The notes beneath the pieces were generated by a model. It was given only the letters and a program-made list of their open reading frames with translations. It made no database searches and was not told where the DNA came from. Source: Rhodothermales bacterium (GTDB taxonomy: Bacteria > Bacteroidota > Rhodothermia > Rhodothermales > UBA10348). Taken from it: DNA of 64,000 bases. Below are positions 31,179-53,780 of this stretch, piece after piece. Numbering within the stretch: the first letter of the stretch is position 1; every line of letters starts with the position of its first letter. Made by a program: the position numbers and the translations under genes. Location of the stretch: positions 1 through 64,000 of the forward strand of contig JAVJVN010000019.1 in NCBI GenBank assembly GCA_040221055.1, given 5' to 3'.

Positions 31179-31212
31179 CCGCCCTCCGCGGTCTGCAAAC
31201 CTCATCCAGCAC

Positions 31213-32070: not shown

Positions 32071-35000
32071 TTATCGGAGCAAAATCATACGCCCGGTGGC
32101 GCGCCAGGCCGAGCCCGCGCCGCGGCCCGCTCCCGCCGCCTCCACCACGTACAGATACGTTCCGGAGGCCAAACCGTCCGCGCTGAACCGCAGCGACGTA
32201 TGCCGACCGGCCGGGAATGTGCCCGCATCCTGCCGGGCCACCACGCGACCGAGCAGATCCACAACCGTAAGACGTACGGCGGCCGGCTCCGGCAGATCGA
32301 AGGGGATGACCGTGGTTGGGTTGAACGGATTGGGGTAATTCTGCCCGAGCCGGTATTCCGTTGGAAGTTCGGCGCCCGGGTTGGCGGGGTCGCCATCGGC
32401 CGAACCGTCGGCGGAACCGTCGCCCGAACTGTCACCCTCCACGCCCGTGGAAATCCAGGAATCCAGGAAGAGGCCGGTGGAGGACGCGAAGTCCAGCCGT
32501 CCGTCCGTGGCGATGAACAGGCCGTAGGAACCAGACGCCGGGGTCAGGTCGATGCTGAAGACGTCCCCCGTGTGGTCGGGAAGGGCAAGCACCGCATAGT
32601 GTTGGAGGCGGGCTTCCGGGTTGAATGGCGGATTGGACACGGTGGGATACAATTCCCCGGGAGCCGCACCCTCGTTGAAGAAGATCGGCATGCCACCGGC
32701 TTCCGTCATCACGATCTCTGCGTTTGTCGATCGGGCGTTCAGGAGCCTTCCGGACACCGTGCCGTCCCCAGGAGTCACCGCAAATGCCGGAATGGGCTCT
32801 ACCACAGCAAAACCGAGAACGGGCACGGCACTGCCATCGCCACCCGGCGCCAGCACCAACCAGGCCTGCTCGCCGTCCGAAACGGTCACTTCCCGGCTCT
32901 CGACAGACCCGCCATCACCCGCCTCCATTCCTCCCTCGTCCTCGGACCCCACAGACCATGAAAATGTACCCGGACGGACCCGGATCGAATTTGTAACCTG
33001 CGAGGTTACAAATTCAAACACCTCTCCGCCGACCGTCATGGACGCCGGACCGTCCACCGCGTTGACCAGGACGATCCGGCCCGAGCCGGCTTCCGTGGTT
33101 TCGGTGGTCCCCACCCCGAATTCCACGCCCTGCTGCGACAGGAGCCCCGTTGCGTCGATCTGGCGGACAATCAGGGAGGAGCTGGTGGAGGAGGCAATCG
33201 GCGATCCTCCCGGTGCTGTCCACGGCGCGGCCCACGAACCACTCGACGCACCGCCAGAGGATCCACCCTGCAGCCCGGCGTCCCGACGGAGCAAGCGATG
33301 CTCGGCAGCCGGCCCGGCAATCACACCGGGCAGCGCCACCGATACCGTGACGGGCTGCGATTGCGCGAAGTTCACAGAGGACGCCAGGGTCCAGACCACG
33401 GGACCAACATCCACCAGAACGCGGCCATCGGACGCCGTTACCGGCAGGCCTTCACGCGAAACCACCTCTGAAGATCGCACACCGGCAACCAGATCGGTAC
33501 TTGACAGCAGGGGCGAGGCAAAGGTGATGGTGAGGGGCGTGTAGGCGTCTGCCGTTCCGACCGGAAACACAAAATCTTCCCGGGTCTCCGACGGTGCGCG
33601 GCGTCCCGTTCGGCCAATCACGTGACTGGGGCCATTCCCGGCGGATCGTTCAAACCCGCCGCTGGATCCCGGAAGCAGCAGCAGGCCGTCCCCGACGTCC
33701 AGGCGCCCACCGTCCAGGGACAACTGCTCGGCGATGGTAAGCGTAACCGGTGTGGCATCGGTCCGACGTACGCGCAACCGTGCCGTGGCGCCGTGCTGCT
33801 CCATGCGCAATCGACCCAGCAAGGGATCTCCGTTCGTGTGCCAGGTCTGGTCCGTGCCTGTTACGAACACTTCCGAAGCCTGGGAAATGGGCAACGTTGT
33901 CTCCAGGTCCCGGGCCACGCGAAGAACCAGCCCGGAGAACGCACCTTCGAGCCGGGCGGGACCCGACGCGGTCAGGTCAATGCTGCCCGAAAGGGAGGCA
34001 GAAGGCCCCAGAAACGTCTCGCCAAGCACCTCGATGGTGGCGAACTGGGCCGATGTCACCGTGACATCCCGTACACTGAAGGAGCCCGACGCCAGAAGCG
34101 GGTTTCCGTCCAGGCGTACAACGGCACTGCCTGCCGGCCCGCTCACGGCGCGGATGGCCAGGTTCCGCACGGACAGCCCGCGGGTCAACCGGACAGACGG
34201 GGCCACCCCTGATGTTTCTTCCAGCGTCATGTCCACGTCATTCAGCAGCAATCCTGCAGGCAGGATCGCGGTGCCGAGGTCGAGTCGGCCGATGCGTGCC
34301 GCGACCCGGGCCTGCACGGGTCCCCCGGTAATCCCGCCGGTATCTCCCGTAAGCGTGCCCGGAGACGCCGAATCCAGCTGTTCCACTTCCCACGTGGCGC
34401 CCGGGGCCACGGCAATGGTCTGTCCGGTGGCCTGCAGGCGTCCGGAGAATACATGCAGTCCGGCCGACACGGTCAGGCTGCTGTTCAGCCGCAATGTATG
34501 CTGGACCGTTCCATGGTTTCCCGCCATGATGACCAGGTGCCCGACCGTTTCAGGCAACTCCAGCCCCGTGGTCAATTCACTGAGCTGGAATCCGGTCGAC
34601 GTGCCGGAGAGTGTGCCGTCATCCAGGTCGTAGAACACGTTGGGAGGGGCGGAGAGGGTCAGTGGATGCGACAGGGTGCCGGTACCGCGGCGGATGATCC
34701 ACGCCCCATCGCCCAAGTGGATATCCGTAGGGGCTCCGGCGACCATCGATGCGCCGCTGCGACCGAATACCAGCCTGCGTTCCACGCCCAGGAACCCTCC
34801 GGAAATCCGGACCTGGACAGGCCCGGATATACGGAGGTTGTCCACGTGGGACTCCGCCAGGACGTCAATGGAAGCACTGCCCGCGCCGCTGACAATGACT
34901 TCGCCGTGCTGTCCGTCAAGGGACGCGAGAAGCATATTCCCGGCATCGACCCCGTTTCCGCGTACATATCCGCCGCCGAGCGTGAGGATGCCGGCCGTAC

Positions 35001-38000
35001 TGCCCGTGATCTCCAGGTCATTCCCGCCCAGGTCAAGCACGCCGGACTGGAGCACGACCGGGGCTCCGCTCGATACGATGACCCGGGACCCGGAGTCGCT
35101 TTCAACCCGGAGTGTGTCCGTCCCGGCATCCACCAGGAGACCCACGGATTGCAAGGACAGGTTGTTGCCCAGTGTCAGTCGGGATGCACCGAGGAAGCGC
35201 ATTTGGCCGGATTGCGATGAGAGATCACCGAAAAAACCGTCTGAACTGCCATCCCCCGGAGTGCCGTCCCGGTCCATGTGCACGTTCGCACCGTCGAATA
35301 TGACATGATGGGAGCCCACGAACACATCGCCATTGACCAGGTCGAACCGGTCCGTAATGAGCAGGTCCGATCCGAGAAGCGTGTCGTCGCTCGATGCCGG
35401 TGCGTCCATGCGGAGCCGGGCGATTCCTCCGGCGGCCACCAGGTTGGCACTCCGGGTCATGGTCACGTAACCGGCCATCGACCCGTCCGCAATGCTGGAT
35501 TCCGTGCTCGGCTCGAGATCAATCCGACTGCCTGCAGGAACCCGGATGTCCGGATTTCCACCGATGTTCAGGCTGCCGTTGGCACCGAACAGGATTTCAC
35601 TCGCATCCAGCGAAAGGAGCGCGGCGGTTATTCCTGCGCCCAGTCGGACGGGTTGACGGACCGTGTACCTCGCTCTCGAGGCCGTGAAGCGCTCTGAAAT
35701 CTGCAGCGGGGTATCGCCGAACAGCGTGACCGTGCCGCTGGATGCATGCAAATCAACCGCCTGGCGGATATTGACCAGCGAAGCGGACCCGGTCGGTTCC
35801 AATCGCAGCCGATCGATACGGGAGGGCGTATTCGTCGCGCCGGTGAGGGATGCGGCATCGCCCCGGACGACCAGATGTCCGGAACCCGCAATGGTGCCTT
35901 CAATCCGATGGTCGGTACCGGATCCCGCCAGCAGCAGATTCACCCCGGACAGGCGCAACAGCGCACCGTTCTCCACGCGAAGAACACCGGCAATTGTGGA
36001 TTCCTGCGCAGGTCGGATGCCGAAAACGGGTGGGGTGTTGGAGGCATCGACCGCTCCGACCACCAGGTCATCGATCAAACCGGACTGGAATTCCAGGCCC
36101 GGCGCATACAGCGTCTGGATGCTTCCGTAATACCGCAGGTTGTACCGCGAGGACGGATCGAACGACGGGGTGCCACTCCATCCGCGACCGTCCGGAAGGC
36201 TGGTTTGCGCTCCGGACCCGCTGCCCGTCACGTTGTCCGAAAGGTTCAGGTGGACGGTCGGGCGGTTCTCAAACAACAGGGTATGCGATCCGATGGCCAA
36301 CCCCCCGGATCGGAAGTCGATGTCGCCCCCGACCCGGACGATCGCGTCGGGGGACGATACGGGGATGGATGTCTGGTCGTCGGACAGCTGCACGCGCAGG
36401 GCACCCAGGCGACCGGCAGCCTCGATGGCGAACGCATCGGATCCGGAAGGGCCGGTAAGGGACAATGCGCCGGTGCTGGACGTTGCGCCACTTCCAGGCG
36501 CCAACGTTGCGCCCGAAAGGGTGCCGCCAACCGTCAGGGTCGGAGACGGGCCCGCGCCCGTCATGATGACCGCACCGTCCAGGATATCCAGCGTCCCGGG
36601 AATGCGCACGTCGTCGGAGACGACCAGTTGACCGGTACCGAGTCCGGTCCGGGATTCCACGACCAACCGGGCCAGGTCCATGCTTCCGTTCACGTCAACC
36701 GATTGGGTGCCCTGACCGTTCAGGATCAACTCCGAGTCCGCCAGGGATACGAGTCCACCGTCGGACGCCAGATTCCCGGCCAGTCGCAGGAAGACGCCCG
36801 TCATGCTGATGTTGCCGGCGGACTGTGTGAGGGAACCGGTGATGTTCAGGGTGGATCCGGACTCCGCCAGCCAGACGCCCCCGCTCATGTCCACGGAGGA
36901 CTGGATATTGATCGTGCTCCCGGAGGCGACCATGAGGGTGCCCCGGCGCAGGGAGAGACGTCCCGCAAGGGATGCGGACTCCGTGAGGGTCACTTCGAAT
37001 CCATTGATGACCAGTGACGGGAGCACAATGGATTGGAAGCCTGAAATGCGTTGGGGCTCCGAACCGTCCATCGTAATCGTTGCACCGTCAGAAGCGTCCA
37101 GGATGCCGCCGTTCTGGACCAGATCGCCCTTCAGGTACAGATTGGAACTGTTTTCGAGGGACAGCTCTCCGGCCAACAGGTCGAGGTCCGATGCAATGGA
37201 AACGGTTCCTGATATCTGCACGTTTCCGCCGGGAGCATCCATTGTCAGTACCGGGAGCACGAGAAGGATATCAGAATCCAGGGTCATTGTGCTCCCGGAC
37301 TCGGCACCGATACCCTGGACGGGCCAGTCGATGGAAGCGGTCCGTAGGCGAACAACACCGCCGAACCGTGCCGGCACGTCGCTCATGAGCACGGCCGATG
37401 CGAAGAGGACCTCCAGTCCGTCCCGGAAGGAGAGTCCGTTCGGGGCCACCAATTCGAGGCTCCCACCGGTCACGGAGACGGGTTCCCGGAATGTCAGCAG
37501 GTCGGGACCGGCAATGCGGCCCATCGAGGCCACGGATGTCAATCGGGGCAATGTGGCTGTCGATGCCCAGTCCACTGCGGTGGCCGATGCACCGAGGTGG
37601 AGGGTGCCTGCAAAATCATCCAGTTCGGCTCCGGTTTCGATGTTCGCCGCGTCATGGAGGGTCAACTCGGCGGTGGGGGCGGCCGCGAGCCGGCCGCCGA
37701 CCGCGAGGCGGTCGGCCGAAAGGCTCGCGGCCGCCCCCAGGGTTGTGTGGCCGCCAGCCGGGACGTCCAGCAGACCGAAATGGCCATTCCCGGCCAATAT
37801 GGCGGTATCCGTGGCGGTCGGGCCCGCCTGGATGGTCAGTCCGTCAATAGCCCCCTCATTCAGGATCTCACTCCCGTCCAGGGCAAAAAGGAGGGGGGTG
37901 GCCAGGTAAGACCCTGACCGGATGGCTGCACTTGCCCCATCGGCGCTCACGTGGCCCTGCTCCTGTACCTGGAGCAATCCCGTAACCTGCACAGGGCCCT

Positions 38001-39129
38001 GGGGCGTTGTCTGGGCTTGGATGGTGACCGTTCGGGGCAGCTGGGTGGTTGCGCCCGCGGTCCCAATGCGCGTCATGGTGCCAGCCAATGTCAGTTTTCC
38101 GCTGGAGGTGGCGTCGTCGAAGCCGGCAATGGCCGCATTGGCGGTCAGGAAAGTGATTTCAGCGTTCTGTGCACCGAAAACCAGCCGGTTCACATTGATT
38201 GAACCGGCTCCACCCCCACTTCCACCTCCTCCATCCCCACCTGTCGGGCTGCCGAAGGAGACGGAAGCGGTTCGCGTCAGTACCAACTCCGTGTCAAAAC
38301 GCAATTCGCCTGTGAACCCGGGCTCCAGCGGTGCCGCCACCGCCGAACCGGTGAACGTGACGGTATCCAGGAAGTCCGTCCGACCGGATCCACCGACCGT
38401 TAGCAGGGCCGGGTCCAACGCGATGGCTGCATCCAGCCGGACGGCGCCTCCATGTGCGATCTGCAGGGCCATGGATTCCGGCAGAAGGCCTTCTGTGATG
38501 GTCAGGTCGGGATTGGCACCGTCCAGGACCACGCGGCGCATCGTCTGGCTCGGCGAGTACACGGGTTGGCCGATCAGCATACCCTCTGCAAAGCGGATTC
38601 GGGCCTCAGCGGAGGCAATCCGTCCCACCGCATCTTCCAGAACCAGGGATACGGACTGCACATCGAGGGTGCCCGCCCGCAGTTCCAGGCTGCGGAGAAC
38701 GCCATCCCGTCCGGATCCCGGAGTGTTCAGGATGCCGGTCCCGAGGACCAGCCGCGATGCGGTGCCCGACAGGAAGCGGACCGTCCCTCCGGGGTTGTCG
38801 ATGGCCAGGAAGCGCTCGGACACGCGGATTTCGTCGTTGCCCGCAAAGGACTCCAGCACGAAATCCACATTCTTGCCGGCTCCTGTCATCAGGACCCCGT
38901 CCCCGTCCGGCCCCAGGAAGTATTCCCCGCCGGCCACGCACACGATCTGGCCATCGGATGCACGCGTGAATCCGGTCTCCAGGGATCGGAGGGGCTGCAC
39001 CTGTGTACCCGGGTTGGCGTCATCGCCGTCCGATGCATTTATATACAGTGTGCATTGCTGGGCCCGGACCGGTGACGCGGCCATGGCCAGGACAATGCAG
39101 GTGAGCAGAAGGAATCGGAAAGGCGTCAT
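32071..39129 (-). CDS. Giant beta-helix surface protein with T9SS C-terminal domain
   Basis: A 2352-residue protein. The signal peptide (MTPFRFLLLTCIVLAMAASPVRA) is followed by CTLYINASDGDDANPGTQ, the usual entry to a parallel beta-helix, and then by more than 1,800 residues of short beta repeats rich in G, S, T, L and D. Towards the end come a mixed-beta segment (SSEVVSREGLPVTASDGR) and a possible DUF4397-like segment (IVLVNAVDGPASMTVGG). The T9SS type A sorting domain (about 2255-2352) has LGQNYPNPFNPTTVIPF and ends GRMILLR. It would be exported through Sec and T9SS to the cell surface. ATG 39129 is chosen for its signal peptide; the frame stays open upstream without conservation. No catalytic motif was recognised. 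Confidence 0.88.
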   Translation of the reverse strand: MTPFRFLLLTCIVLAMAASPVRAQQCTLYINASDGDDANPGTQVQPLRSLETGFTRASDGQIVCVAGGEYFLGPDGDGVLMTGAGKNVDFVLESFAGNDEIRVSERFLAIDNPGGTVRFLSGTASRLVLGTGILNTPGSGRDGVLRSLELRAGTLDVQSVSLVLEDAVGRIASAEARIRFAEGMLIGQPVYSPSQTMRRVVLDGANPDLTITEGLLPESMALQIAHGGAVRLDAAIALDPALLTVGGSGRTDFLDTVTFTGSAVAAPLEPGFTGELRFDTELVLTRTASVSFGSPTGGDGGGGSGGGAGSINVNRLVFGAQNAEITFLTANAAIAGFDDATSSGKLTLAGTMTRIGTAGATTQLPRTVTIQAQTTPQGPVQVTGLLQVQEQGHVSADGASAAIRSGSYLATPLLFALDGSEILNEGAIDGLTIQAGPTATDTAILAGNGHFGLLDVPAGGHTTLGAAASLSADRLAVGGRLAAAPTAELTLHDAANIETGAELDDFAGTLHLGASATAVDWASTATLPRLTSVASMGRIAGPDLLTFREPVSVTGGSLELVAPNGLSFRDGLEVLFASAVLMSDVPARFGGVVRLRTASIDWPVQGIGAESGSTMTLDSDILLVLPVLTMDAPGGNVQISGTVSIASDLDLLAGELSLENSSNLYLKGDLVQNGGILDASDGATITMDGSEPQRISGFQSIVLPSLVINGFEVTLTESASLAGRLSLRRGTLMVASGSTINIQSSVDMSGGVWLAESGSTLNITGSLTQSAGNISMTGVFLRLAGNLASDGGLVSLADSELILNGQGTQSVDVNGSMDLARLVVESRTGLGTGQLVVSDDVRIPGTLDILDGAVIMTGAGPSPTLTVGGTLSGATLAPGSGATSSTGALSLTGPSGSDAFAIEAAGRLGALRVQLSDDQTSIPVSSPDAIVRVGGDIDFRSGGLAIGSHTLLFENRPTVHLNLSDNVTGSGSGAQTSLPDGRGWSGTPSFDPSSRYNLRYYGSIQTLYAPGLEFQSGLIDDLVVGAVDASNTPPVFGIRPAQESTIAGVLRVENGALLRLSGVNLLLAGSGTDHRIEGTIAGSGHLVVRGDAASLTGATNTPSRIDRLRLEPTGSASLVNIRQAVDLHASSGTVTLFGDTPLQISERFTASRARYTVRQPVRLGAGITAALLSLDASEILFGANGSLNIGGNPDIRVPAGSRIDLEPSTESSIADGSMAGYVTMTRSANLVAAGGIARLRMDAPASSDDTLLGSDLLITDRFDLVNGDVFVGSHHVIFDGANVHMDRDGTPGDGSSDGFFGDLSSQSGQMRFLGASRLTLGNNLSLQSVGLLVDAGTDTLRVESDSGSRVIVSSGAPVVLQSGVLDLGGNDLEITGSTAGILTLGGGYVRGNGVDAGNMLLASLDGQHGEVIVSGAGSASIDVLAESHVDNLRISGPVQVRISGGFLGVERRLVFGRSGASMVAGAPTDIHLGDGAWIIRRGTGTLSHPLTLSAPPNVFYDLDDGTLSGTSTGFQLSELTTGLELPETVGHLVIMAGNHGTVQHTLRLNSSLTVSAGLHVFSGRLQATGQTIAVAPGATWEVEQLDSASPGTLTGDTGGITGGPVQARVAARIGRLDLGTAILPAGLLLNDVDMTLEETSGVAPSVRLTRGLSVRNLAIRAVSGPAGSAVVRLDGNPLLASGSFSVRDVTVTSAQFATIEVLGETFLGPSASLSGSIDLTASGPARLEGAFSGLVLRVARDLETTLPISQASEVFVTGTDQTWHTNGDPLLGRLRMEQHGATARLRVRRTDATPVTLTIAEQLSLDGGRLDVGDGLLLLPGSSGGFERSAGNGPSHVIGRTGRRAPSETREDFVFPVGTADAYTPLTITFASPLLSSTDLVAGVRSSEVVSREGLPVTASDGRVLVDVGPVVWTLASSVNFAQSQPVTVSVALPGVIAGPAAEHRLLRRDAGLQGGSSGGASSGSWAAPWTAPGGSPIASSTSSSLIVRQIDATGLLSQQGVEFGVGTTETTEAGSGRIVLVNAVDGPASMTVGGEVFEFVTSQVTNSIRVRPGTFSWSVGSEDEGGMEAGDGGSVESREVTVSDGEQAWLVLAPGGDGSAVPVLGFAVVEPIPAFAVTPGDGTVSGRLLNARSTNAEIVMTEAGGMPIFFNEGAAPGELYPTVSNPPFNPEARLQHYAVLALPDHTGDVFSIDLTPASGSYGLFIATDGRLDFASSTGLFLDSWISTGVEGDSSGDGSADGSADGDPANPGAELPTEYRLGQNYPNPFNPTTVIPFDLPEPAAVRLTVVDLLGRVVARQDAGTFPAGRHTSLRFSADGLASGTYLYVVEAAGAGRGAGSAWRATGRMILLR
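32987..33015. repeat. Perfect 13-bp inverted repeat inside the giant gene
   Basis: GAATTTGTAACCT (32987-32999) and its exact complement (33003-33015) flank GCG. On the coding strand it encodes about EFVTSQVTNS. The arms are AT-rich in a GC-rich gene. The inner TTGTAA/TTACAA words also occur in the palindrome at 27635, with a spacer one base longer there. It could be chance or a binding site. Confidence 0.5.
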
Positions 39130-39609
39130 TGCGGACCGGATGGTTGGAGGTCCCGGCATGGGCCGGGCGGGACCCAAAATAGGGAATCGGGGACGCCGGA
39201 TGTCACACGATCTTGTTATGGCGTTCTTGCGATCGGCGTGCCGATTCCGGATATTGCAGCACTTGAGTACGGGTGTTCCGGTTACATATTTCTGGCTTTC
39301 CAGTTGGGTATCCGGGGCATTCCATGTGTACAAGACCATGCAAACACGTGGCGAAATCCCGGCTTCCGGGGCATTAGTCGCGTTTTAAAGACCTGATTAT
39401 AAACCGCTTGCGGAAAATCAGAAACCGTTATTGAACTTCATGTCTTCCACCCACCAACACGCTTCCGGCGCACGGAATTCTTTCCGTCGTGCCGGTTTTT
39501 GCGTGTCGATGGTCATCGGAAGTCCTGAGAATCCAACCCGTCCCTCTTCTTGAGGGGCACTCCTAAACACAAATCATTCCAAAGAATGAAAATCAGAGAG
39601 GCTCAGTCC
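39130..39609. other. 480-bp intergenic region between divergent giant genes
   Basis: No coding sequence is evident. It should hold promoters for both giant genes. A TATAAA (39398-39403) faces the plus strand and could be a -10-like box. On the minus strand TATTTTGG, close to the Bacteroidota -7 consensus TAnnTTTG, lies about 45 bases before the 39129 start. A terminator hairpin (39465-39500) and a small hairpin, CCCTC/GAGGG (39542-39556), lie in the plus-strand leader. Confidence 0.5.
39465..39500 (+). terminator. Intrinsic terminator in the leader of the plus-strand giant gene
   Basis: CCGGCGCACGGA (39465-39476) pairs with TCCGTCGTGCCGG (39483-39495), with one bulged C and one G-U, loop ATTCTT, followed by five T (39496-39500). 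No plus-strand gene ends upstream, so it would act on a transcript starting within this intergenic region, either as an attenuator or as the end of a small RNA. Confidence 0.6.
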
Positions 39610-42600: not shown

Positions 42601-45600
42601 GGGTCTACGAGTAACACCGTGGCCGCTACGCTGACGAACGTCAATGTGACGGGTACGGTCTCCATCTCCAACATTCAGCAAGTCACAGGTCTCATCGATG
42701 TTGATGGCGATCTCACGTTTGGCATGTCGAATGCTGATGGAGCAACTGCAGGCCCTGGCACTGACGCTCGTTTGGCCGGTAATCTCACTGTAGACGAAGG
42801 TGCAAGCTTCACGCTTTCCACCAACGTAATTTCAGACGCCAACGTCGACTTTGGTGATAACGGCGCTACAGCCGGTACCGCCACGCTCAACTTGGGTGGC
42901 TTCGAATTGCGCATGGTAGGCGGTGCATTTACGGCCGATGTGGACTCCGATCTCGGAACGACAGGTACAATAGCATTTGACGGTGGTACCATTGGTACCG
43001 CAGGTGCATCTGTGCCCAATCTTTGGGTCGACTCCGGCTTGGTAGCACTGTCCAGCGATGTTGACGTTCTGACGCTCCTTGATGTGGACGTGGCTCTTGG
43101 TCTCGCGACCTTCACGCTTTCGCTTCAGGGTGATGCTGAGCTCGCTGCCGATGTTACGGGAGGTGAGTTCGAGACGCTCGGTACGACGCTGACGGCTTCT
43201 GCTGATATCGACTTCACAGATCTGACGATCAACAGCGTCAGTACGACGACGTTCGCATCGACGAGCGGAACCACGGATCGTACGTTTACTGTCCTTGGCG
43301 CATACGTCCACACCAAGGGCGACGTGGATCTCGGTGATCAGGATCTGGTTATCACGACCAGCTTTGATTACACAGCGGGGTCTTATATGGCGGGCGATGG
43401 CATCGTGTTCTTCAACGATGCAACGGATAATGCCGCTGCTATCCCAGTTGACACGAACGGTGGCATCGTAACCATTCCAAATGTCACAGTAGACGTTACG
43501 GTTGGAACGGACGTCGGCTCCAATGACGGAATCACTCTCGTCGACGGTGCCTCTGAAGTGGATCAAATGGTCGTATCGGGATCATTCATGATTCTTGATG
43601 GAACCGTTCTGACCAACGAAGCAGGCGCCCTGACGGACTCGAAGGTTACGCTGAATGACGGTGTCGTTCTGACGCGTGACGATGGCACGTTCGAGCAGAC
43701 GCCCACGTTCGGTGGCGACAACTTGACCGTCATCTATGAGGACTTCGATGCCAGTGGTCTTATTGTGACGGACAACGAGCTTCCCGCAACGGTTGCCGAA
43801 CTCCAGATCAACGATGCCACAGAGCTCGACGACAATGTCGATGTAGCTGTCACAACGCTTGACTTGAATGGCGACCTTTCCATCGACGAGAATGACGACG
43901 GTGATAACACACTCACAATCGCTGAAGGTGGATGGTTGCAGGTCTCTGCTCTTGGTGCTTTTGTTGACAATAATGCCGGCACAGTCGAGCGATTCACTCC
44001 AGCTGGCCCTGTCAACTTGATGTTCGACGGGTTGGCAACCACCAACAGCCTCGTCTTTCCGGATGCCGCTGGAGCTGACGCCGTCAATGTCAACGAACTG
44101 TCGGTGCAGGCTAATGTCGCTCTTCATGCTGATCGTACGGTTGTTGATGCTACGATTGACGCTGCCTTCGACGTTAATGGCAACGAACTGTCAGTAACGG
44201 GTTCGTTTGTACTCGTCGATGATGCTGATGCCCCGGATGGCTCTATCACTGACTCAGGCCCTGGCGGCGCTCTCGCGCTGGACGGCTCGGGTTCTGCACA
44301 GACGCTCGACGCAACCGGTGACATCGACTTCCCGGCTTCACGGTTGATTATCTCCAATCCGGAGGGAGTGATTCTCACCGGTGGAGACATAGACTTCCGT
44401 AATCCAGGAGCTGCTCCAGCTGCTGGTCCTGGAACCGGTGGTACACTCGTTCTTGAGGAGGGGGTCTTCACAACCGGTACCAACCAAGTGATCCTTGATC
44501 ATGGTGGAACCGGTAGTCAGGGCTTCACCTCCGACGGTGGTGTTCTTGTCGGCAATGTTACAAAGGAGATCGTTGGTGGCGCTTTGGGTGCTGCAGCGGA
44601 TCGGATGACGTTCCCGACCGGTACTACTGCAGGCGAAAGCCGCCCAGTGTCTATCACGTTCAACAAGCCAAATGAGATTGCGGCTGGTGGTGCCTCAGGT
44701 ATCACTCTAACCGTGAACCATCTTGAAACCTCACCTGGTGGCAACAACAACCTGCCGTTGACTACAAAGGATAATCTGGGAGAGGATCTTACGATCGCTC
44801 GATATCCAGATTTCCATTGGCTGATTACGGCAAGCTCGACGTTGTCGCCGTCCGTCGATTATGACATCGAACTGAATGCTGCTGGATTTGCAGAGTTCGT
44901 TGGTGAGGACATTGAGAGCGTTCGTACGATCCGCCGTCAGGCTCACGCAAACGAGGCCACGATCACAGAGGAGCAAAAAACGAACTTCTGGACACTGGTT
45001 GGTCCAACGCCTGAAGCAAACGACAACTTTGCTGTCAGTTCGACCAATCCTGTCACGGTTGTTCGTGACGCAGTCGGTGCTCTGAACTCCGGCAACGGCG
45101 TGCTCTTCACGATGGGTCTCGAGTCCAACATGACAGTCACGGCTCCTGCAGCTGTCGCAGTCAATGCGGGCGATACGCAAGACCTGGATCTGTCAACCGT
45201 GTTCGGAGGCGGTACCGGTGCTTACACCTATGCCATTACGTCGGCTGATACAGGTGTCGCGACTGGCACGGCTGCGGGCAACACATTGACCGTGTCAGGT
45301 GTTGCTATCGGATCGACTACGTTGACGGTGGTCGCGACCGATGAATTGAACGACTCCCGTTCGACTACGGTTACCGTAAATGTTGCTCCTGGCTTCGCAG
45401 CAGCACCGGATCTTGATCTGGATGCAGCAGTGAATGTTGGTGGTACGAATGAAGCTGCCCTCGAAGGCGTTGTGGTAGGGGGTACGGAACCGTACACCTA
45501 CGCCGCTACATCCAACGATACGGCTGTTGCCACGGCAGCAATCGTATCGGGTGAACTCGTCATCACGGGTGTTGCCATCGGGTCGACGACCGTTGATCTG

Positions 45601-46806
45601 GTTGCCACGGACGCCACGGGCGCTACCGTGACCCTGGTTGTCAATGTGACGGTCAGCAATGCGCTGGCCATCGCCTCCGGTGCCACCGATGTCGTTGAAT
45701 TGACGGAAGGTGACTCTGGTGAAGGGTTGGCTACCGATCTGTTCGAAGGTGGTTCGTCACCGTTCGACATCGCGGTTTCTTCAGCAGATGAAGATCATGT
45801 CACGGTATCGATTGACGATGCTGGCATGATCACCATCAATGCTATCGAAGCCTATGCAGCCGGTACCACGATCGGTCTGGTCAATGTCACGGTAGATGTA
45901 ACGGATGCGTCCGGCGCTACGTTGGTAATCACGGTTCCTGTCGATGTCCTTCCGGTCCTTGGTGATTTGGACGGCTCCGGCGCTCCGAGCTCAGCCAGCG
46001 CCTCGCTTGCCCTGGATTACTTCCTTGGCCTGACGACGCTGACGGCGAAGCAGCAGGTTGCCGCTGACTTCAACAGCGACGGCTTTGTCACTCCGTTCGA
46101 CGCTGCCTTGATCTTCGACGCCTTCTTCAACAGCAAGAAGGAGATCAATGAGTTCGTCGCAAGTGACCTTGCATTCGGAACGATTGCCCGCGAGGCCGGA
46201 ATGGTTTCCATCCCGCTCGTACTCGAAGGCGATCTGAACGGTGTGGTCTCTGCCCAGTTCACGGCCCAGATTGACCCGGCTTACGCTACGGTCACCTCTG
46301 TCGAGTCCAACCTCGGCGAAGGCTGGATCGTGAAGCATGTGGTATCGGAAGACGGTCAGCTGCGTGTTGCCATCGCAGGCTTCGGTGATGTGGTTGCGGA
46401 CGGTAACGTCGCTACCATCAACCTGCAGCTTGTCGACGGTGCTCCTGCATTCAACCTGAGTGCAGAAGGCGCAGTCAACAACAATCCGGTTGCCAACATC
46501 GACGCGGTTGAAGTAGTCGAACTGCCAGAAACGTTTGCCCTGCAGGGTAACTACCCGAACCCGTTCAACCCGACCACGACGGTCCAGTTTGACCTGCCGG
46601 AAACGGCAGACGTCGAAATCCATGTCTTTGACATGGTGGGTCGTCAGGTGATGGCGCTGCCTTCGCAGACCATCCAGGCCGGTACGAAGCGTTCGGTACA
46701 GCTCAATGCATCGCAGCTTGCTTCTGGATCGTACTTCTACCGGGTCATTGCCAAGATGGAGAGCAAGACGCTCGTCGAGTCTGGCCGCATGATGCTGGTC
46801 AAGTAA
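39610..46806 (+). CDS. Giant beta-helix surface protein with Ig-like, dockerin-like, cohesin-like and T9SS domains
   Basis: A 2398-residue protein. The signal peptide ends SMSMAQ (near residue 31), then IYVSTTGSDALDGSS. A very long beta-helix of INGD/VDGD-type repeats runs to about residue 1640. Three Ig-like domains follow (about 1842-2112, with the repeated VAIGSTT). A dockerin-like pair (about 2118-2170) has a degenerate first loop DLDGSG and a canonical second loop DFNSDGFVTPFD (D, N, D, T, D ligands). A cohesin-like domain (about 2180-2297) and the T9SS domain (about 2305-2398, GNYPNPFNPTTTVQF...GRMMLVK) end it. ATG 39610 is chosen for AGAGAGG just upstream and the signal peptide. Codon use (many GGT, ACG, GCT) differs from the other giant. 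Confidence 0.88.
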   Translation: MNKQRLLQLITRAAFALIVMFAFTASMSMAQIYVSTTGSDALDGSSPTVQSATVGPKKTIGAALLIAGDGDTIVIEAGTYAEDLDFSAAGFDGDDITVRASNRIANTVVTLQGDIIIGAAVGVSEPNITLATSGGTFVTSGAGNDLFLADGTLTLASAGVLTLRDDVLVTRTHGAVSGSNAVFFAGESNFSFANTTAAPGESITVGLEFPADLNGGVIDITQAAGSITFPGFTAGDFDASTAASVTINGDVVIEGDTDGFTNGGAGSVVVNGDLDAQADIVTSTGAGDITVNGDLDLANGVYLINDGTGDMEVTGTVRYTETVIPAELGLTNDVEIIRSDAGSLTVNNVVTAFASRNGGAAGNATFNFQINIVDGDGEIAGTITEAGSGANTFSAAVDVIDGWVELLTGAAAAAPGDGLTIASSNTVSGDITNAGTLILGAGATLTLEYDNVAGFTGGLGDINGSTGTVVINGDTPAGTVDIAGNLTINGDGGAVGLDVGGNLSLAGDGDISGVVDVDGIMNVTGNGVDFTAPNGPGLFAVRVDGTTTLSATATGGDFPDFSGGDADFNGDVIINSNTDFAGDVDVAGSLTVSNVGDFGGDLTVAGTATFDGSSVADANTITGDMNISGALSISDNSYVSGVDGAVSTFTIDDTVVSQGSAFIVGEDNTLDIQGNFTGGLLDGTDTDGDGTVALVKFSLPSGGATFSPGPNTQVADVEVDGNELTLMVVGGFEAQGNLTLQNDATLDLTDVLVSLTGTNAVVDIKTNSEIIASGNTGALEFAANVADNATTATAEGAPAAGQEIIGGGTLTNIIVNNANIAPEPVDLDASITITGQISLADGGIAIENAETLAFSGDGAGVSINVGGTSVIFNGDGSTGAVSGSYDLTYEGIAVAPFTSGDEYDATDVDDLTVTATGNTINLNSSGAVNISGDFTVATGVLADLDDDLEVDGTASIAGTVSGNGVPNVLELSGDGLSHSVTGTVTADLTLSGDSDLAGSTSNTVAATLTNVNVTGTVSISNIQQVTGLIDVDGDLTFGMSNADGATAGPGTDARLAGNLTVDEGASFTLSTNVISDANVDFGDNGATAGTATLNLGGFELRMVGGAFTADVDSDLGTTGTIAFDGGTIGTAGASVPNLWVDSGLVALSSDVDVLTLLDVDVALGLATFTLSLQGDAELAADVTGGEFETLGTTLTASADIDFTDLTINSVSTTTFASTSGTTDRTFTVLGAYVHTKGDVDLGDQDLVITTSFDYTAGSYMAGDGIVFFNDATDNAAAIPVDTNGGIVTIPNVTVDVTVGTDVGSNDGITLVDGASEVDQMVVSGSFMILDGTVLTNEAGALTDSKVTLNDGVVLTRDDGTFEQTPTFGGDNLTVIYEDFDASGLIVTDNELPATVAELQINDATELDDNVDVAVTTLDLNGDLSIDENDDGDNTLTIAEGGWLQVSALGAFVDNNAGTVERFTPAGPVNLMFDGLATTNSLVFPDAAGADAVNVNELSVQANVALHADRTVVDATIDAAFDVNGNELSVTGSFVLVDDADAPDGSITDSGPGGALALDGSGSAQTLDATGDIDFPASRLIISNPEGVILTGGDIDFRNPGAAPAAGPGTGGTLVLEEGVFTTGTNQVILDHGGTGSQGFTSDGGVLVGNVTKEIVGGALGAAADRMTFPTGTTAGESRPVSITFNKPNEIAAGGASGITLTVNHLETSPGGNNNLPLTTKDNLGEDLTIARYPDFHWLITASSTLSPSVDYDIELNAAGFAEFVGEDIESVRTIRRQAHANEATITEEQKTNFWTLVGPTPEANDNFAVSSTNPVTVVRDAVGALNSGNGVLFTMGLESNMTVTAPAAVAVNAGDTQDLDLSTVFGGGTGAYTYAITSADTGVATGTAAGNTLTVSGVAIGSTTLTVVATDELNDSRSTTVTVNVAPGFAAAPDLDLDAAVNVGGTNEAALEGVVVGGTEPYTYAATSNDTAVATAAIVSGELVITGVAIGSTTVDLVATDATGATVTLVVNVTVSNALAIASGATDVVELTEGDSGEGLATDLFEGGSSPFDIAVSSADEDHVTVSIDDAGMITINAIEAYAAGTTIGLVNVTVDVTDASGATLVITVPVDVLPVLGDLDGSGAPSSASASLALDYFLGLTTLTAKQQVAADFNSDGFVTPFDAALIFDAFFNSKKEINEFVASDLAFGTIAREAGMVSIPLVLEGDLNGVVSAQFTAQIDPAYATVTSVESNLGEGWIVKHVVSEDGQLRVAIAGFGDVVADGNVATINLQLVDGAPAFNLSAEGAVNNNPVANIDAVEVVELPETFALQGNYPNPFNPTTTVQFDLPETADVEIHVFDMVGRQVMALPSQTIQAGTKRSVQLNASQLASGSYFYRVIAKMESKTLVESGRMMLVK

Positions 46807-46820
46807 ATGAGTCAAGAGTG

Positions 46821-46845
46821 GGCGGGGCGCGGAAAGCGCCCCGCC
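46821..46845 (+). terminator. Hairpin between the first and second plus-strand T9SS cargo genes
   Basis: GGCGGGGCGC (46821-46830) pairs perfectly with GCGCCCCGCC (46836-46845) around GGAAA, 14 bases after the stop. A pyrimidine-rich stretch (CATCTTCCTCTCT), but no T run, follows. It is a likely terminator or 3' stabilising structure. Confidence 0.6.
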
Positions 46846-46891
46846 TACATCTTCCTCTCTGGCAATCAACCCAATGAAGAGCGAGAATCCA

Positions 46892-49069
46892 ATGCATAAG
46901 GCTTTTACCAAAACGATCACTACGGCTGCTCTATTTTTTGCAGCCATGCTGGTCGGAGCTGTCCCCGCGATGTCCCAGGTTGCCGTCACCGTTGGTGATG
47001 TGACCGGACGTCCGGGTGAAACGGCCACGGTAGCCGTAGACATTTCGGGTGCTGAAGGCGAGACCGCCATTCAGTCATTCGGATTCACGGTGACCACGGG
47101 TCCTGACATCAGCTTCACTGGCATCAGTACGGATGGTACGCTCTCGGGAAATGCCGGCTTCGCAACCGGCGCCAACACGGTCAACGGCAACGTTGGCGGT
47201 TTCTCCCAAGGCACGGACGTCACGACGTCCGGTACACTCATCTATCTGACCTTTGATCTCGGAACCACCGGTTCCGGGACCTTCTCACTGGGCGGATTTG
47301 CATTCAACGGAGGCGACCCTGCAGCGACAGGTTCATTTTCCGCTGGATACACCGTCTCCAACCGCATTATTGCTGTCGATAACGCCTTCGCAGGTGTTTC
47401 CCAGGACTTCCTGATCAACATCAGCCTCGAGGATGCCCTTGTTGCTGGCGATGGTGTGGTTTCTTTCAACTTCGATCTCAACTACGACGCTTCCCTGATG
47501 TCAATCAACTCGACTGAAGGAGTAAACGGTGTAGTTGCCGCTGGTATCACGTCGGGTGCAACGGTCAACGGTTCTGCCGTCGACGCCAACACCTTCCGTG
47601 TTGCCGGTTTCTCCGGTGCGAATCTCACGGGAGATGGATTGTTCATCCAGGTTGCAGCAACGGCCACCAGCACGGCTGGCGTAGCGAACATGACGCTTAC
47701 GAACGTCACGTTCAACACCGGAACTCCGGTATACGCTTCCCGCACGGGTGTCCTGACGGTCAACGCCGTCAACTTTGCTCCTGTGTTCACGGCTGAGCTG
47801 ACGGACACTGAAATCCTGGAAGATGACTTCACGTTCACGTTCGATTATGACGCTACGGATGCCAACGGCGATGCGATTACATACGCATTGACGGCTGGTC
47901 CTGGCTCCATCGACGCGACGACGGGTGTCTACACACTGGATCCGATGGGAAACAGTGGTGTGCACACCATCACGGTTTCGGCTTCCGATGGTGTCAATAC
48001 GACGTCGACGAGTGCTGAACTCACGGTTGTTCGCGTGGACTGGCTGGAAGCCCGCCTGGCTGGCTTCCACGAAGTACCTCCGGCGGCTACGGTTGCCACG
48101 GGTAACGTCACGGTTCGTCTGGTTGCAGATCAGGGAACCATGGATGTCTTCGGCTTCTACGAGGGCCTGGCTGGAACGTACTCCGCTTCACACATCCACA
48201 TCGGTGATGTAGGTGTGAACGGTGGTGTTGCTTTCCCGCTTGCTCCCGATGTCGACGGTTTCTTCGGTCAGACCATTGACGTCTCTGCAGCCACGGCTGC
48301 CCAGATCAGCGCACTCCGCAACGGCGGTGCGTATGTCAATGTCCACTCAAGCGCCTACCCGGGTGGCGAAGTCCGCGGTCAGCTCCTGGATGCGGGCAAC
48401 TCCGCTCCTGGATCGGCTGTGATTTCTGCCCTGTCGTCTGTGACGATTACCGGTGATCCTTCGACGCCAGCACTCACGGTTACGTGGCTGCCGGTGTCCG
48501 ATCCCGATGGCGATACGGTCAACTACATCTTCCAGATGTCGGCCAACGCGTCGTTCACGGAGATCATCGGCATTGAAAGCTTCGGTACGTCCAACAGCCT
48601 TACGGCAACGGTTGGCGATCTCGCAGCGATCTATGACGAAGTTGCGCCTGTGGTCGAGATCGGTGGTCAGGTCACGGTATTCCACCGTGTCATTTCCACC
48701 GATGGATCCCTTTGGACGGCCGGTGCCAGCAAGAGCTTGACGCTCACGCGCGGTACGGTCACCGATACGGAGAACGGTACGGAGCTTCCTTCGGAGTTCA
48801 CACTGAAGGGCAACTACCCCAACCCGTTCAATCCTTCGACGACCATCCAGTTCGATCTGCCGGAAACGGCTGACGTAACGGTACAGGTCATGGATATGCT
48901 GGGTCGCCAGGTCATGTCCATCCCGTCGCAGACCGTTGAAGCCGGTGCGAACCGGTCCATGCAACTGAATGCTTCTGCCCTGTCCTCGGGCATTTACCTC
49001 TACCGCGTCATTGCGGCCGGGGCAAATGATACCCGTGTCAAGGTGGGTACGATGACGCTGCTGAAGTAA
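46892..49069 (+). CDS. T9SS cargo protein with two cohesin-like domains and a CHRD domain
   Basis: A 725-residue protein. The signal peptide ends VPAMSQ (near residue 29). Two cohesin-like domains follow, about 30-155 (VAVTVGDVTGRPGETATVAVDI) and 155-290 (VSFNFDLNYDASLMSI). An Ig/cadherin-like domain comes at about 300-378, then a CHRD domain at about 382-501 (ARLAGFHEVPP, SHIHIG, YVNVHSSAYPGGEVRGQL). A fibronectin-like region precedes the T9SS domain (about 630-725, GNYPNPFNPSTTIQF...GTMTLLK). Cohesins bind dockerins; a dockerin-like module is encoded in the gene just upstream. An in-frame ATG at 46874 is an alternative start. Binding is inferred, not shown. Confidence 0.88.
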   Translation: MHKAFTKTITTAALFFAAMLVGAVPAMSQVAVTVGDVTGRPGETATVAVDISGAEGETAIQSFGFTVTTGPDISFTGISTDGTLSGNAGFATGANTVNGNVGGFSQGTDVTTSGTLIYLTFDLGTTGSGTFSLGGFAFNGGDPAATGSFSAGYTVSNRIIAVDNAFAGVSQDFLINISLEDALVAGDGVVSFNFDLNYDASLMSINSTEGVNGVVAAGITSGATVNGSAVDANTFRVAGFSGANLTGDGLFIQVAATATSTAGVANMTLTNVTFNTGTPVYASRTGVLTVNAVNFAPVFTAELTDTEILEDDFTFTFDYDATDANGDAITYALTAGPGSIDATTGVYTLDPMGNSGVHTITVSASDGVNTTSTSAELTVVRVDWLEARLAGFHEVPPAATVATGNVTVRLVADQGTMDVFGFYEGLAGTYSASHIHIGDVGVNGGVAFPLAPDVDGFFGQTIDVSAATAAQISALRNGGAYVNVHSSAYPGGEVRGQLLDAGNSAPGSAVISALSSVTITGDPSTPALTVTWLPVSDPDGDTVNYIFQMSANASFTEIIGIESFGTSNSLTATVGDLAAIYDEVAPVVEIGGQVTVFHRVISTDGSLWTAGASKSLTLTRGTVTDTENGTELPSEFTLKGNYPNPFNPSTTIQFDLPETADVTVQVMDMLGRQVMSIPSQTVEAGANRSMQLNASALSSGIYLYRVIAAGANDTRVKVGTMTLLK

Positions 49070-49097
49070 CACTCGGCGCTCAATCGTTCAGATTGAA

Positions 49098-49133
49098 GGG
49101 GGGCGGGATCGACAGATCCCGCCCCCCTTTTTT
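49098..49133 (+). terminator. Intrinsic terminator after the CHRD cargo gene
   Basis: GGGGGGCGGGATC (49098-49110) pairs perfectly with GATCCCGCCCCCC (49115-49127), loop GACA, followed by six T (49128-49133). It lies 28 bases after the stop codon. Confidence 0.93.
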
Positions 49134-49259
49134 ATGGTAGTGTCAATTGGGACCGTGGATGAAAAAGTGCATGGAGCAAATGGGGAGGTGGACCGTATAT
49201 TGAACCAGCTCCCCCTTTGCAAGCGCCAATTTGCAAACCATAAGTCATCAGGCCCATCT

Positions 49260-51383
49260 ATGATCAAAACGATACTGTCCACGTGTTTACTCCTCCTTCT
49301 TTTTGTCCTGCCGGCATCGGGTCAGACCGTTGTCATTGACTTCGGGCCCATCAGTGGAGGAATAGGAGAAACGGTCCTGGTCCCCGTCGACCTGTCGGGT
49401 GTGGAGTCGACGGACGGTTTCAACAGCTTCTCGTTTTCGGTCAACGTGACCGGATCGAATCTCCTCTACAATGAGGGACAGAACAGCACGACAGGAACAC
49501 TCGGCGCATCGACGGGCTGGAATGTGGTGTCGAACAATGGCAAAGTGGCTGGCTTCGCATCATCCAGCAATGCCATTTCCGCATCGGGCACACTCATCAA
49601 CCTGTCTGTCACCATCCAGGCTGAAGGATCCGGTACGATCGAGTTGACCGGGTTTACCCTGAAAAAAAACAACTCCCAGGGTGTTGCGGAAGACGTGCCC
49701 TTCTCGCCGGCCGTTCCAACGGCGGCGTTGAGTGTATCGAATGCGCCCGAAGCAACGGACGACTCCTACCAACTTGACGAAGGAGCGACGCTCGTGGTAT
49801 TGGCCGCGCAGGGTGTGCTGGCCAACGATACCGATGCCGACGGCGACGCCTTGACGGCCACGGTTGCCAGCAACGTATCCAATGGTACGCTGACCCTGAA
49901 TGCCGATGGGTCCTTCACCTACACGCATAATGGATCGGAGACCACCAGCGACTCGTTTACCTACACGGTTTCGGACGGTGCGGATACCGATATCGGTCTG
50001 GTCGCCATCACGATCAATCCGGTCAATGACGCGCCCGTCTTCACGGCATTCATGGAGAATGTGGAAGTGAACCAGGGGGGCACGGTCATCGGTGACTTCA
50101 CGGCGACCGACGGCGAGAATGATCTGTTGACGTATTCCCTCGTTTCGGGACCGTCCGGCGTCATTCTGGACGCTACGACAGGTGATTTTGTCTGGGCTGC
50201 CACGGAAACCGGTGAGTTTGAGGTGATTGTTGCCGTTTCTGATGGCACCGTGTTTGTCAACGCCCCCGCGTTTACCATCCGGGTCCGGGCCGTTGAATCG
50301 TTTTACGGTGAACTCTCCGGACTGAACTCCACCACGATGGTATCGGGACAGGCCTCCGGATTCATTTCTTCGACGTTCATTCCCGATGACAATGAATTGG
50401 TCATTGATGGTGAGTTCACGGGTATCGGCTCCCTGCACGCGGTGTCCCAACTCGGCATCGGTGCCTTCCTGGAAGCCGGAGCCAGTGTGACCGCTCTTAC
50501 GCCGACTTTCCCCGGAGGAGATGCCAGCGCACGGAGTGCCACGTTCAACAACAATGTCATTGATTTGACATCATTGACCTATCCGAGCGGCGAGTCCATG
50601 GCCACGTTCGTGGCGGCGCTTCGTGCCGGAGACGTTTTTGTATCCGTCCGGACGGTGGACAATCTGGAAGGGGAACTGCGGGCGCAGCTCGCCCCGGACG
50701 ACAATACCGCACCGACCTCGTTGGATGTGGCGGTGCCGTCGAGTGCTTCGGTCACCGGAAGTCCATCGGATGAGCTGTATACGGCCACGTGGGCCGGACA
50801 AGCCTCCGATCCCGATGGCGACGCTACCCGGTTGATCCTCCAGGTCGCGGCAGACGCCGGCTTCGGGGAGGTCCTGTCGTCCTGGGATGTATCGGTTACC
50901 CCCAATGGTACGGTCGCCGTAACGGTGGACGATGCAGCGCAGTTGGTGGACCGGATTATCGGTGCTACCCAACTTGGTGGATCGGCTGACGCCCACTACC
51001 GCTTGGTCACCACGGACGGTGCGGCACTCTCATCGGGTGCCACCTCGTCCATTACGCTCGTTCGGGGCACGGTCACGAATACCGACGAGGATTCGACGGT
51101 CCCGGAGCAGTTCCTGCTGCGCGGCAACTATCCGAATCCCTTCAATCCGACAACCAGCATTGAATTTGACCTGCCGGAAGCGGCCGATGTCGAAGTCCGG
51201 GTGCTCGATCTGTTGGGACGGACCATGCTGACGGTCCCGTCGCAGGCACTTTCCGCCGGCACGAACCAGCGCATCCGGATTGACGCCGAGGATCTCGCAT
51301 CGGGCATCTACATCTACCGGGTCCTGGTGACATCGGCCGAGCGGTCGCATGTCGCCACAGGGACCATGACCCTCATCAAATGA
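49260..51383 (+). CDS. T9SS cargo protein with cohesin-like, cadherin-like and CHRD-like domains
   Basis: A 707-residue protein. The signal peptide is MIKTILSTCLLLLLFVLPASG. A cohesin-like domain (about 22-158, VVIDFGPISGGIGETVLVPVDL) is followed by a tandem-95/cadherin-like repeat (about 162-258, DEGATLVV, VLANDTDADGDAL, DSFTYTVSDG). Next come an Ig-like repeat (about 258-345), a degenerate CHRD-like segment (about 350-478, ending DNLEGELRAQLAP), a fibronectin-like part and the T9SS domain (about 610-707, GNYPNPFNPTTSIEF...GTMTLIK). The architecture is parallel to the upstream gene, so the two look like diverged duplicates. ATG 49260 is set by the signal peptide. Confidence 0.88.
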   Translation: MIKTILSTCLLLLLFVLPASGQTVVIDFGPISGGIGETVLVPVDLSGVESTDGFNSFSFSVNVTGSNLLYNEGQNSTTGTLGASTGWNVVSNNGKVAGFASSSNAISASGTLINLSVTIQAEGSGTIELTGFTLKKNNSQGVAEDVPFSPAVPTAALSVSNAPEATDDSYQLDEGATLVVLAAQGVLANDTDADGDALTATVASNVSNGTLTLNADGSFTYTHNGSETTSDSFTYTVSDGADTDIGLVAITINPVNDAPVFTAFMENVEVNQGGTVIGDFTATDGENDLLTYSLVSGPSGVILDATTGDFVWAATETGEFEVIVAVSDGTVFVNAPAFTIRVRAVESFYGELSGLNSTTMVSGQASGFISSTFIPDDNELVIDGEFTGIGSLHAVSQLGIGAFLEAGASVTALTPTFPGGDASARSATFNNNVIDLTSLTYPSGESMATFVAALRAGDVFVSVRTVDNLEGELRAQLAPDDNTAPTSLDVAVPSSASVTGSPSDELYTATWAGQASDPDGDATRLILQVAADAGFGEVLSSWDVSVTPNGTVAVTVDDAAQLVDRIIGATQLGGSADAHYRLVTTDGAALSSGATSSITLVRGTVTNTDEDSTVPEQFLLRGNYPNPFNPTTSIEFDLPEAADVEVRVLDLLGRTMLTVPSQALSAGTNQRIRIDAEDLASGIYIYRVLVTSAERSHVATGTMTLIK

Positions 51384-53772: not shown

Positions 53773-53780
53773 AACACACT

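Follow-up and report, generated by a model that had tools for sequence, protein, structure and literature searches.

A candidate cohesin-dockerin surface device formed by a giant type IX-secreted protein and its gene neighbours in Rhodothermales

Introduction

Among the closest described systems to the locus considered here are the cellulosomes of Clostridia and Ruminococcus (CipA and ScaB scaffoldins, type I), which are alike in the cohesin fold, the two-repeat dockerin and the presence of several cohesins per chain. In the passages of PMC5244752 that bear on the subject, the function of cohesins and dockerins outside the cellulosome was described as not known as of 2017, and the relevant passages of PMC5264255 report kelp Planctomycetes that are rich in dockerins, which differs from the pairing of a giant protein with a cohesin-bearing neighbour. 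Such a pairing is described here for a cluster of four genes (P1 to P4) of a Rhodothermales bacterium (Bacteroidota; GenBank assembly GCA_040221055.1), located within positions 1 to 64,000 of contig JAVJVN010000019.1 (the window, i.e., the whole stretch of DNA that was analysed).

A sequence-only reading of the window had proposed that all four products are cargo of the type IX secretion system (T9SS), that they combine beta-helices with cohesin-like, dockerin-like and CHRD domains, and that they could join giant surface fibres into an extracellular matrix with no glycoside hydrolase in sight. Analysis of the window, of its genome (3.32 Mb, 22 contigs) and of related genomes revealed that the modules are genuine by both profile and fold, rather than unrelated sandwiches that lack profile matches, and that a pair of genes, one for a giant protein with a dockerin and one for a cohesin protein, is kept in families scattered across the phylum, which makes the finding more interesting than first stated. 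P2, P3 and P4 probably constitute a T9SS-exported, non-enzymatic surface device in which the cohesins of P3 would hold the dockerin at the base of P2.

Cohesin and dockerin modules

Cohesins were assessed with PF00963 (curated cut-off 24.1 bits) and type I dockerins with PF00404 (22.9 bits). P3 exceeded the cohesin cut-off (27.1 bits, two stretches), the C-terminal module of P2 fell below it (21.6 bits), and the domain of P4 itself had no PF00963 match. As Pfam scans of single sequences gave weak results for P2 and P4, alignments were built from relatives: A1 for the dockerin-cohesin unit of P2 (16 genes), A2 for P3 and A4 for the N-terminus of P4. Searched against the Protein Data Bank (PDB), the A1 profile matched cohesin 4uyp_A (5.6e-5), A2 matched scaffoldin cohesins (2.6e-4) and A4 matched cohesins (7.9e-11), and A4 also aligned to the cohesin pair of P3 (4e-20). 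Five of the six members of the P4 alignment had a PF00963 match at E <=1 (best 6.1e-11), and P4 orthologues exceeded the cut-off (e.g., 42.5 and 41.3 bits). The cut-off was also exceeded in 4 of the 10 homologous giant ends scanned; in L102, L103 and L111 the best stretch was an extra cohesin preceding the dockerin, and only L104 (31.6 bits) passed at the position of the P2 module, as did L205 (33.0 bits) among further giants (prefixes L, G and f denote loci, genomes and families).

Predicted folds agree with these assignments. The AlphaFold2 model of the P3 pair (pLDDT 93.5, pTM 0.80) matched cohesins in the first 34 PDB entries listed (Z 15.8-10.3; the entry after them, 9.6), with a scaffoldin cohesin dyad as the top Foldseek match (2.0e-10). 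For the P2 unit, whose fold search covered model residues 73-195 (the cohesin, not the dockerin half), the first 26 entries were cohesins (Z 12.8-10.7), and unrelated sandwiches scored close to them (entry 27 at Z 10.7, several more at 10.1-9.8), so that the cohesin call leans on profile and fold together. P3 starts with two tandem cohesins, P2 carries one C-terminal cohesin, and profile comparison places one cohesin at the start of P4. The cohesins proposed earlier for the cluster were borne out for these three proteins; P1 has neither a cohesin nor a dockerin detectable by Pfam or by our own profiles and shares only the sorting domain with the others. PF00963 found no larger multi-cohesin scaffold in the window's genome, though the same search missed P3 and P4.

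The dockerin of P2 scored 13.2 bits against PF00404 in the protein scan and 20.8 bits in the genome scan, both below the cut-off, and it is therefore called dockerin-like. PF00404 passed in homologous giants, namely in 3 of 10 (27.7, 30.5 and 27.2 bits), 2 of 3 (38.1 and 24.1) and 3 of 3 (24.5, 29.5 and 43.1) of those scanned. The two top PDB entries for A1 were chains named 'Serine protease' (1.3e-13), and the best classical dockerin was 4uyp_B (7.1e-12). In the AlphaFold2 model of the dockerin-cohesin unit (pLDDT 92.6, pTM 0.87), three helices are followed by the cohesin, and the high-confidence helices (19-29, 37-43 and 53-65) correspond to a helical two-repeat topology. The pair of calcium loops read from the sequence was confirmed for loop 2, which is canonical (D-N-D-D), but not for loop 1, which is degenerate at position 12. 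This position is Ser, Ala or Gly in 8 of 10 aligned giants of family f1 (P2 included); Asp is retained in the giants of L107 and L110, and many other giants have two canonical-looking loops.

By PF00404 (E <=1), the window's genome has two dockerin places, P2 and a laminin-G protein, with no dockerin detected on a recognised enzyme; the A1 profile found the same two. The second protein (L109:11147-13498, contig C15) contains laminin-G, cohesin and dockerin domains in this order, followed by a partial A1 match, and the contig ends just after it.

A recurrent pair of a dockerin giant and a cohesin gene

Orthologues of P3 were found in eight relatives (44-62% identity over almost the whole 610-aa query); where the contig is long enough, they adjoin P2-type genes and often P4-type genes too. 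Within the order, the giants end in dockerin-cohesin or cohesin-dockerin-cohesin. The pairing was counted over all 76 A1 matches in frames of at least 1500 aa in the class and phylum sets (shorter frames uncounted), and four giants with fewer than 300 bases after them were left out of the downstream count. A cohesin was present in the downstream same-strand neighbour of 64 of the 72 remaining giants and in the upstream neighbour of 3 of 67, and giant and partner were separated by 1-800 bases (median 64). One cohesin was found in 17 of the 64 partners, two in 24, and three or more in 23. Because the Rhodothermales loci L095-L114 had been picked partly for clustered cohesin matches, the remaining loci, fetched by dockerin match alone, were counted separately, and 50 of 57 had a cohesin downstream. 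At least one positive genome occurred in 14 of the 15 families having such a giant, family f28 (2 genomes) being negative. When Pfam alone was used, the cohesin cut-off was exceeded in 11 of 15 genes just downstream of giants (not in L103, L111, L107 and L173). As background, 30 of the 80 sorting-domain loci of the window's genome were sampled, two of which represent the P1-P4 cluster; none of the other 28 had a cohesin or dockerin match within 3.2 kb. In calling partner genes, domain-bearing frames were preferred over antisense frames (as in L101).

The arrangement of domains recurs as well. The distance from the end of the dockerin to the C-terminus of the giant has a median of 227.5 aa (range 0-276, n=76), in the partners the median start of the first cohesin is aa 36 (n=64, with four exceptions at 421 to 1907), and 60 of the 64 partners have a sorting domain. 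The same-strand gene following the partner also has a cohesin in 16 of 44 loci, as P4 does here. Such a conserved neighbourhood is expected if the cohesins and dockerins act as partners.

Genome G038, of the same order as the window, encodes a protein identical over 234 aa to xanthorhodopsin 3ddl, whose source we take to be Salinibacter ruber, hence the label of this genome; Salinibacter is a member of Rhodothermales. The pair is present there in a minimal two-gene version (L104:5984-14898), i.e., in a cultured species. Among the contigs of named relatives scanned, one short contig matched the sorting-domain region of P3, not the cohesins.

Several variants were observed beside the pair. Small secreted-looking proteins with a single cohesin (~150-170 aa; L096:16087-16602, L098:3884-4390, L097:11164-11619 and L108:10703-11224) sit between P3- and P4-type genes or ahead of a P4-type gene in relatives and are absent from the window; no sorting domain was found in them, their cohesin was recognised by our own profiles, and the one scanned with Pfam (L096) had no match. 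At L108 (G007), neither the giants nor P3 are present in the slot, which is occupied by a small cohesin gene and a P4-type gene in which no cohesin was detected. At L189 and L188 (G238, G240), two or three cohesin-dockerin-cohesin proteins are encoded in tandem, which suggests duplication. Outside the order, L194-L214 represent a second class of pair, in which giants of ~1750-1960 aa with a dockerin (Beta_helix in 3 of 3 scanned) are mostly followed by three-cohesin proteins (Big_2 domains in 3 of 3 scanned).

Export signals, CHRD domains and giant bodies

T9SS cargo of type A is anchored to the outer surface via its C-terminus. The sorting domain exceeded the curated cut-off (23 bits) in P2 (32.1), P3 (43.5) and P4 (32.4 bits) and was borderline in P1, which scored 21.8 bits (just under) in the protein scan and more than the cut-off in the genome scan. 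Genome-wide, 80 matches were found (E <=0.01), and the sortase PorU is encoded (953.9 bits against a cut-off of 420). Together with N-termini that resemble signal peptides by eye, these predicted signals mark all four proteins as T9SS cargo, in agreement with the sequence-only reading. The CHRD and CHRD-like domains that it had placed in two proteins were likewise recovered, that of P3 clearly and that of P4 just below the cut-off.

For beta-helices in P1 and P2, no Pfam match was found. A profile of P2 residues 45-900 retrieved a single PDB entry, a xylosidase at 0.098, which is too weak to count, and the N-terminus of P1 resembles surface beta-helix proteins by eye. Pfam Beta_helix was detected in 3 of 3 shorter giants scanned from other families (3.1e-38, 3.9e-50 and 2.6e-56) and in 0 of 3 longer P2-type giants of relatives (E <=0.01); the missing match for the body of P2 is no evidence against a beta-helix there. 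The PKD-like repeats of P2 gave a weak match (E 0.43), and in P3 weak PKD/cadherin-like matches and a SusE-like region under the cut-off were noted.

A proposed arrangement and its alternatives

Module identity, the fold of the P2 module and the P3 pair, gene order, T9SS signals and recurrent gene pairing are observed; from these we infer binding in trans, a fibre shape for the giant, and a surface layer with a function in adhesion or as a coat. P2 would be a giant fibre whose N-terminal body projects from the cell, and at its base the dockerin would pack on the C-terminal cohesin-fold module, followed by the sorting domain for attachment to the outer membrane. X modules stabilise type II dockerins, and the cohesin-fold module that follows the dockerin may have a comparable stabilising role. 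P3 would present two cohesins at its far N-terminus, atop a CHRD-containing stalk, and might engage two P2 molecules in trans through their dockerins, thereby gathering or spacing the fibres of a surface layer; the single-cohesin protein P4 could be a second partner. Since the dockerin lies near the C-terminus by which the giant is anchored, it would be at the base of the fibre, and since the first cohesin of the partner lies near the N-terminus with the sorting domain at the other end, it would be at the tip of the stalk. This geometry points towards a fibre-base clamp on a single cell more than towards a free matrix. The earlier interpretation of fibres joined into a matrix is partly supported.

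Several observations weigh against such a device. The A1 profile matched 69 of the 244 genomes in the class set and 72 of the 394 in the phylum set (overlapping sets), so most genomes, 322 of the latter 394, have no match. In the window's own family, 17 of the 27 genomes lack a dockerin-cohesin match, although many are incomplete. Eight of the 72 giants have no cohesin neighbour (G012:C1, G147, G234, G313:C43, G331, G337, G383 and G401), and at least 3 of the 64 positive neighbours are cohesin-dockerin-cohesin proteins themselves (L188, L189). Partner genes from the same loci made up part of the training set of the second-round cohesin profiles, and the related genomes are not independent of each other. 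The degenerate loop 1 of P2 could weaken or abolish binding, and P2 has its own cohesin beside the dockerin, with a joint model that also fits an intramolecular pair.

This last point leads to the strongest alternative, in which the dockerin of P2 binds the cohesin that follows it (or the one that precedes it in Salinibacter-type giants) and stabilises only the base of the giant, while P3 and P4 use their cohesins to bind something else. In nearly all giants the dockerin has a cohesin next to it, and the joint model places the two relative to each other with confidence (pTM 0.87); however, an intramolecular lock leaves the conserved cohesin gene unexplained, which is found downstream far more often than upstream, and the giants of L198, L199 and L223, in which no cohesin was detected after the dockerin (a diverged module being possible), have kept a multi-cohesin gene downstream. 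We regard this alternative as unlikely. Less likely still, with a low probability in our view, is that the cohesin-fold domains are plain spacers or sugar-binding sandwiches and the dockerin a relic, as might be suspected from the degenerate loop 1 of P2 and most of its close orthologues and from the scores of the P2 dockerin and cohesin below the Pfam cut-offs. Against this, dockerin repeats are retained from Rhodothermales to other families of the phylum, dockerin and cohesin genes are co-localised far above the upstream control, and the fold and profile searches with P3 and P4 gave cohesins as top matches, not generic Ig domains. An enzyme-carrying scaffold as in cellulosomes, with P3 and P4 recruiting dockerin-bearing hydrolases, is very improbable for the window, since of the two dockerin places found in its genome by PF00404 (E <=1) one is P2 and the other the laminin-G protein at a contig end, even though in another family of the order, f8, multi-cohesin scaffolds occupy the corresponding chromosomal slot, and polysaccharide lyases and other putative hydrolases with dockerin tails are encoded elsewhere in the genome. 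A cellulosome was ruled out for the window's genome because neither detectable dockerin is on a recognised enzyme. The clamping of P2 by the cohesins of P3 stays the preferred explanation.

A cellulosome-like gene set in family f8

Genomes G033, G045 and G054 of family f8 had 10, 11 and 7 Pfam dockerin matches, respectively. Among 20 dockerin frames examined, 16 lacked a sorting motif and had their dockerin no more than 23 residues from the C-terminus; the other 4 had a sorting motif. The Pfam scan comprised 17 dockerin proteins (dockerin genes in L145-L164), including two PL14 lyases (L151, L161), three proteins with DUF5060 and a collagenase-type binding domain (L147:4105, L160, L164) and three beta-helix proteins over the cut-off (L146, L149, L157). 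Multi-cohesin proteins with sorting domains were also present, with six cohesins in L113 and three in L162 by Pfam and four in L114 by our own profiles; by the same profiles, a protein of L163 also has four cohesins. In each of the three genomes, one multi-cohesin protein (L113, L114, L163) is flanked by homologues of the window's metallophosphoesterase and tRNA synthetase genes, which is the slot of the P1-P4 cluster, and an E2 homologue is also found at L113, suggesting a common locus for the f8 scaffold and P1-P4. In G045, the T9SS protein L162:72-2573 combines three cohesins with an M23 peptidase domain and lies beside a dockerin-cohesin protein.

With many dockerin proteins and few multi-cohesin scaffolds, the f8 modules look trans-acting, and this set supports trans action of the modules in the order. 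It might be speculated that the f8 dockerin proteins leave the cell on the scaffold. No glycoside hydrolase was found among the 10 other window genes scanned (10 genes, not all), as had been noted from the sequence; given the dockerin enzymes of f8, however, the statement describes the window's lineage and not the order.

A broader proposal can be outlined, to which we give slightly less than an even chance: a purely structural T9SS 'fibre and clamp', i.e., a giant with a base-proximal dockerin almost always encoded beside a protein with one to three N-terminal cohesins, would be spread through the phylum; in one Rhodothermales family, the slot would be occupied by a multi-cohesin scaffold, with lyases that lack sorting domains maybe exported on it; and T9SS cellulosome-like scaffolds would have evolved from, or alongside, the structural device. 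If the function proposed for the gene pair is confirmed, T9SS bacteria would gain a calcium-dependent means of building surface layers from giant proteins, surface architecture would be linked to the origin of cellulosome-like scaffolds in the phylum, and new plug-and-socket pairs would become available for protein engineering.

Organisation of the locus

The cluster sits amid housekeeping genes on either side (Table 1). P1 and P2 are divergently oriented, and P2, P3 and P4 are consecutive on the plus strand, with gaps between frames of 67 bases (P2-P3) and 64 bases (P3-P4). Likely starts were placed by eye at signal-peptide-like N-termini.

Table 1. Coordinates of the P1-P4 cluster, its domains and flanks in the window, and of multi-cohesin loci in family f8 (numbered within each locus)
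Feature	Position	Strand	Remarks
Left flank: 2-oxoacid dehydrogenase E2, metallophosphoesterase	29862..32019	+	homologues also beside f8 multi-cohesin scaffold locus
P1 giant T9SS protein	32071..39129	-	frame 32071-39339, 2422 aa; start ~39129
P1 T9SS type A sorting domain	32134..32337	-	27.8 bits in genome scan
P2 giant protein	39610..46806	+	frame 39550-46806, 2418 aa; start 39610; long body, PKD-like repeats, dockerin-like domain, cohesin, sorting domain
P2 dockerin-like domain, aa 2138-2188	45961..46113	+	first calcium loop degenerate, second intact
P2 C-terminal cohesin, aa 2200-2324	46147..46521	+	profile and predicted fold; Pfam below cut-off
P2 T9SS sorting domain	46552..46767	+	over cut-off
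P3, proposed clamp partner of P2	46874..49069	+	frame 46874-49069, 731 aa; start 46874 or 46892; two cohesins, PKD/cadherin-like region, CHRD, SusE-like region, sorting domain
P3 cohesin 1	46973..47353	+	Pfam, profile, predicted fold
P3 cohesin 2	47357..47776	+	Pfam, profile, predicted fold
P3 CHRD domain (PF07452)	48047..48385	+	82.7 bits, E 4.9e-23, over cut-off
P3 T9SS sorting domain	48815..49045	+	over cut-off
P4 single-cohesin T9SS protein	49260..51383	+	frame 49134-51383, 749 aa; start 49260; cadherin-like and CHRD-like domains
P4 cohesin	49323..49733	+	profile comparison
P4 CHRD-like domain	50310..50690	+	23.7 bits vs 24.1, E 9.6e-5, just below cut-off
P4 T9SS sorting domain	51129..51323	+	over cut-off
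Right flank: UbiA-like, GWxTD protein, class II tRNA synthetase	51385..55277	+	syntenic flank of slot
f8 multi-cohesin loci	L113:7503-11998, L114:7672-11227, L163:3909-7594, L162:72-4277		3-6 cohesins

Comparison with known systems

The pair described here is a new variant of the cohesin-dockerin kind and not a cellulosome. In the open-access literature, as covered by titles and the starts of abstracts (subscription papers lying mostly outside), nothing pointed to a T9SS gene pair of a dockerin giant and a cohesin protein, and no open-access paper was found that joins the CHRD domain with type IX secretion or Rhodothermaeota with dockerin. The finding suggests that connectors of the cellulosome type also build surface structures, not only enzyme complexes, and the compact pair, present in cultured Salinibacter ruber too, makes a non-cellulosomal function of cohesins and dockerins experimentally tractable.

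The locus differs from the cellulosomes of Clostridia and Ruminococcus in that no dockerin enzymes were detected in the window's genome, that the dockerin is carried by a giant protein and that export would proceed through the T9SS. The cohesins of Clostridium perfringens glycosidases (2jh2, 2vo8 and 2w1n) are the nearest solved folds to the P2 cohesin (Z 12.8, entries within 1 being tied) and also occur outside cellulosomes, but in glycosidases, whereas no enzyme is known to be joined here. The complex of Cloacimonadota Ca. Stygibacter has scaffoldin-like tandem cohesins and a C-terminal surface-attachment domain, which is close to f8; in the passages of PMC8542988 that describe it, dockerins are mostly on hydrolases and peptidases, with one on a halomucin-like protein, and a giant dockerin protein with a neighbouring cohesin gene is not described. 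In anaerobic methanotrophic (ANME) archaea, the passages of PMC9012536 and PMC5244752 on dockerin and cohesin expansions consider that these may serve in cell contact or link surface proteins, similar to the role proposed here; the archaeal proteins are said to differ considerably from one another, whereas the present case is marked by recurring gene order and architecture. Finally, for the non-cellulosomal bacterial and archaeal cohesins and dockerins of Peer et al. (2009), as cited in passages of PMC5244752 and PMC9012536, which involve no cellulose degradation and whose function was left open there, the recurrent pair of giant and partner offers a specific hypothesis.

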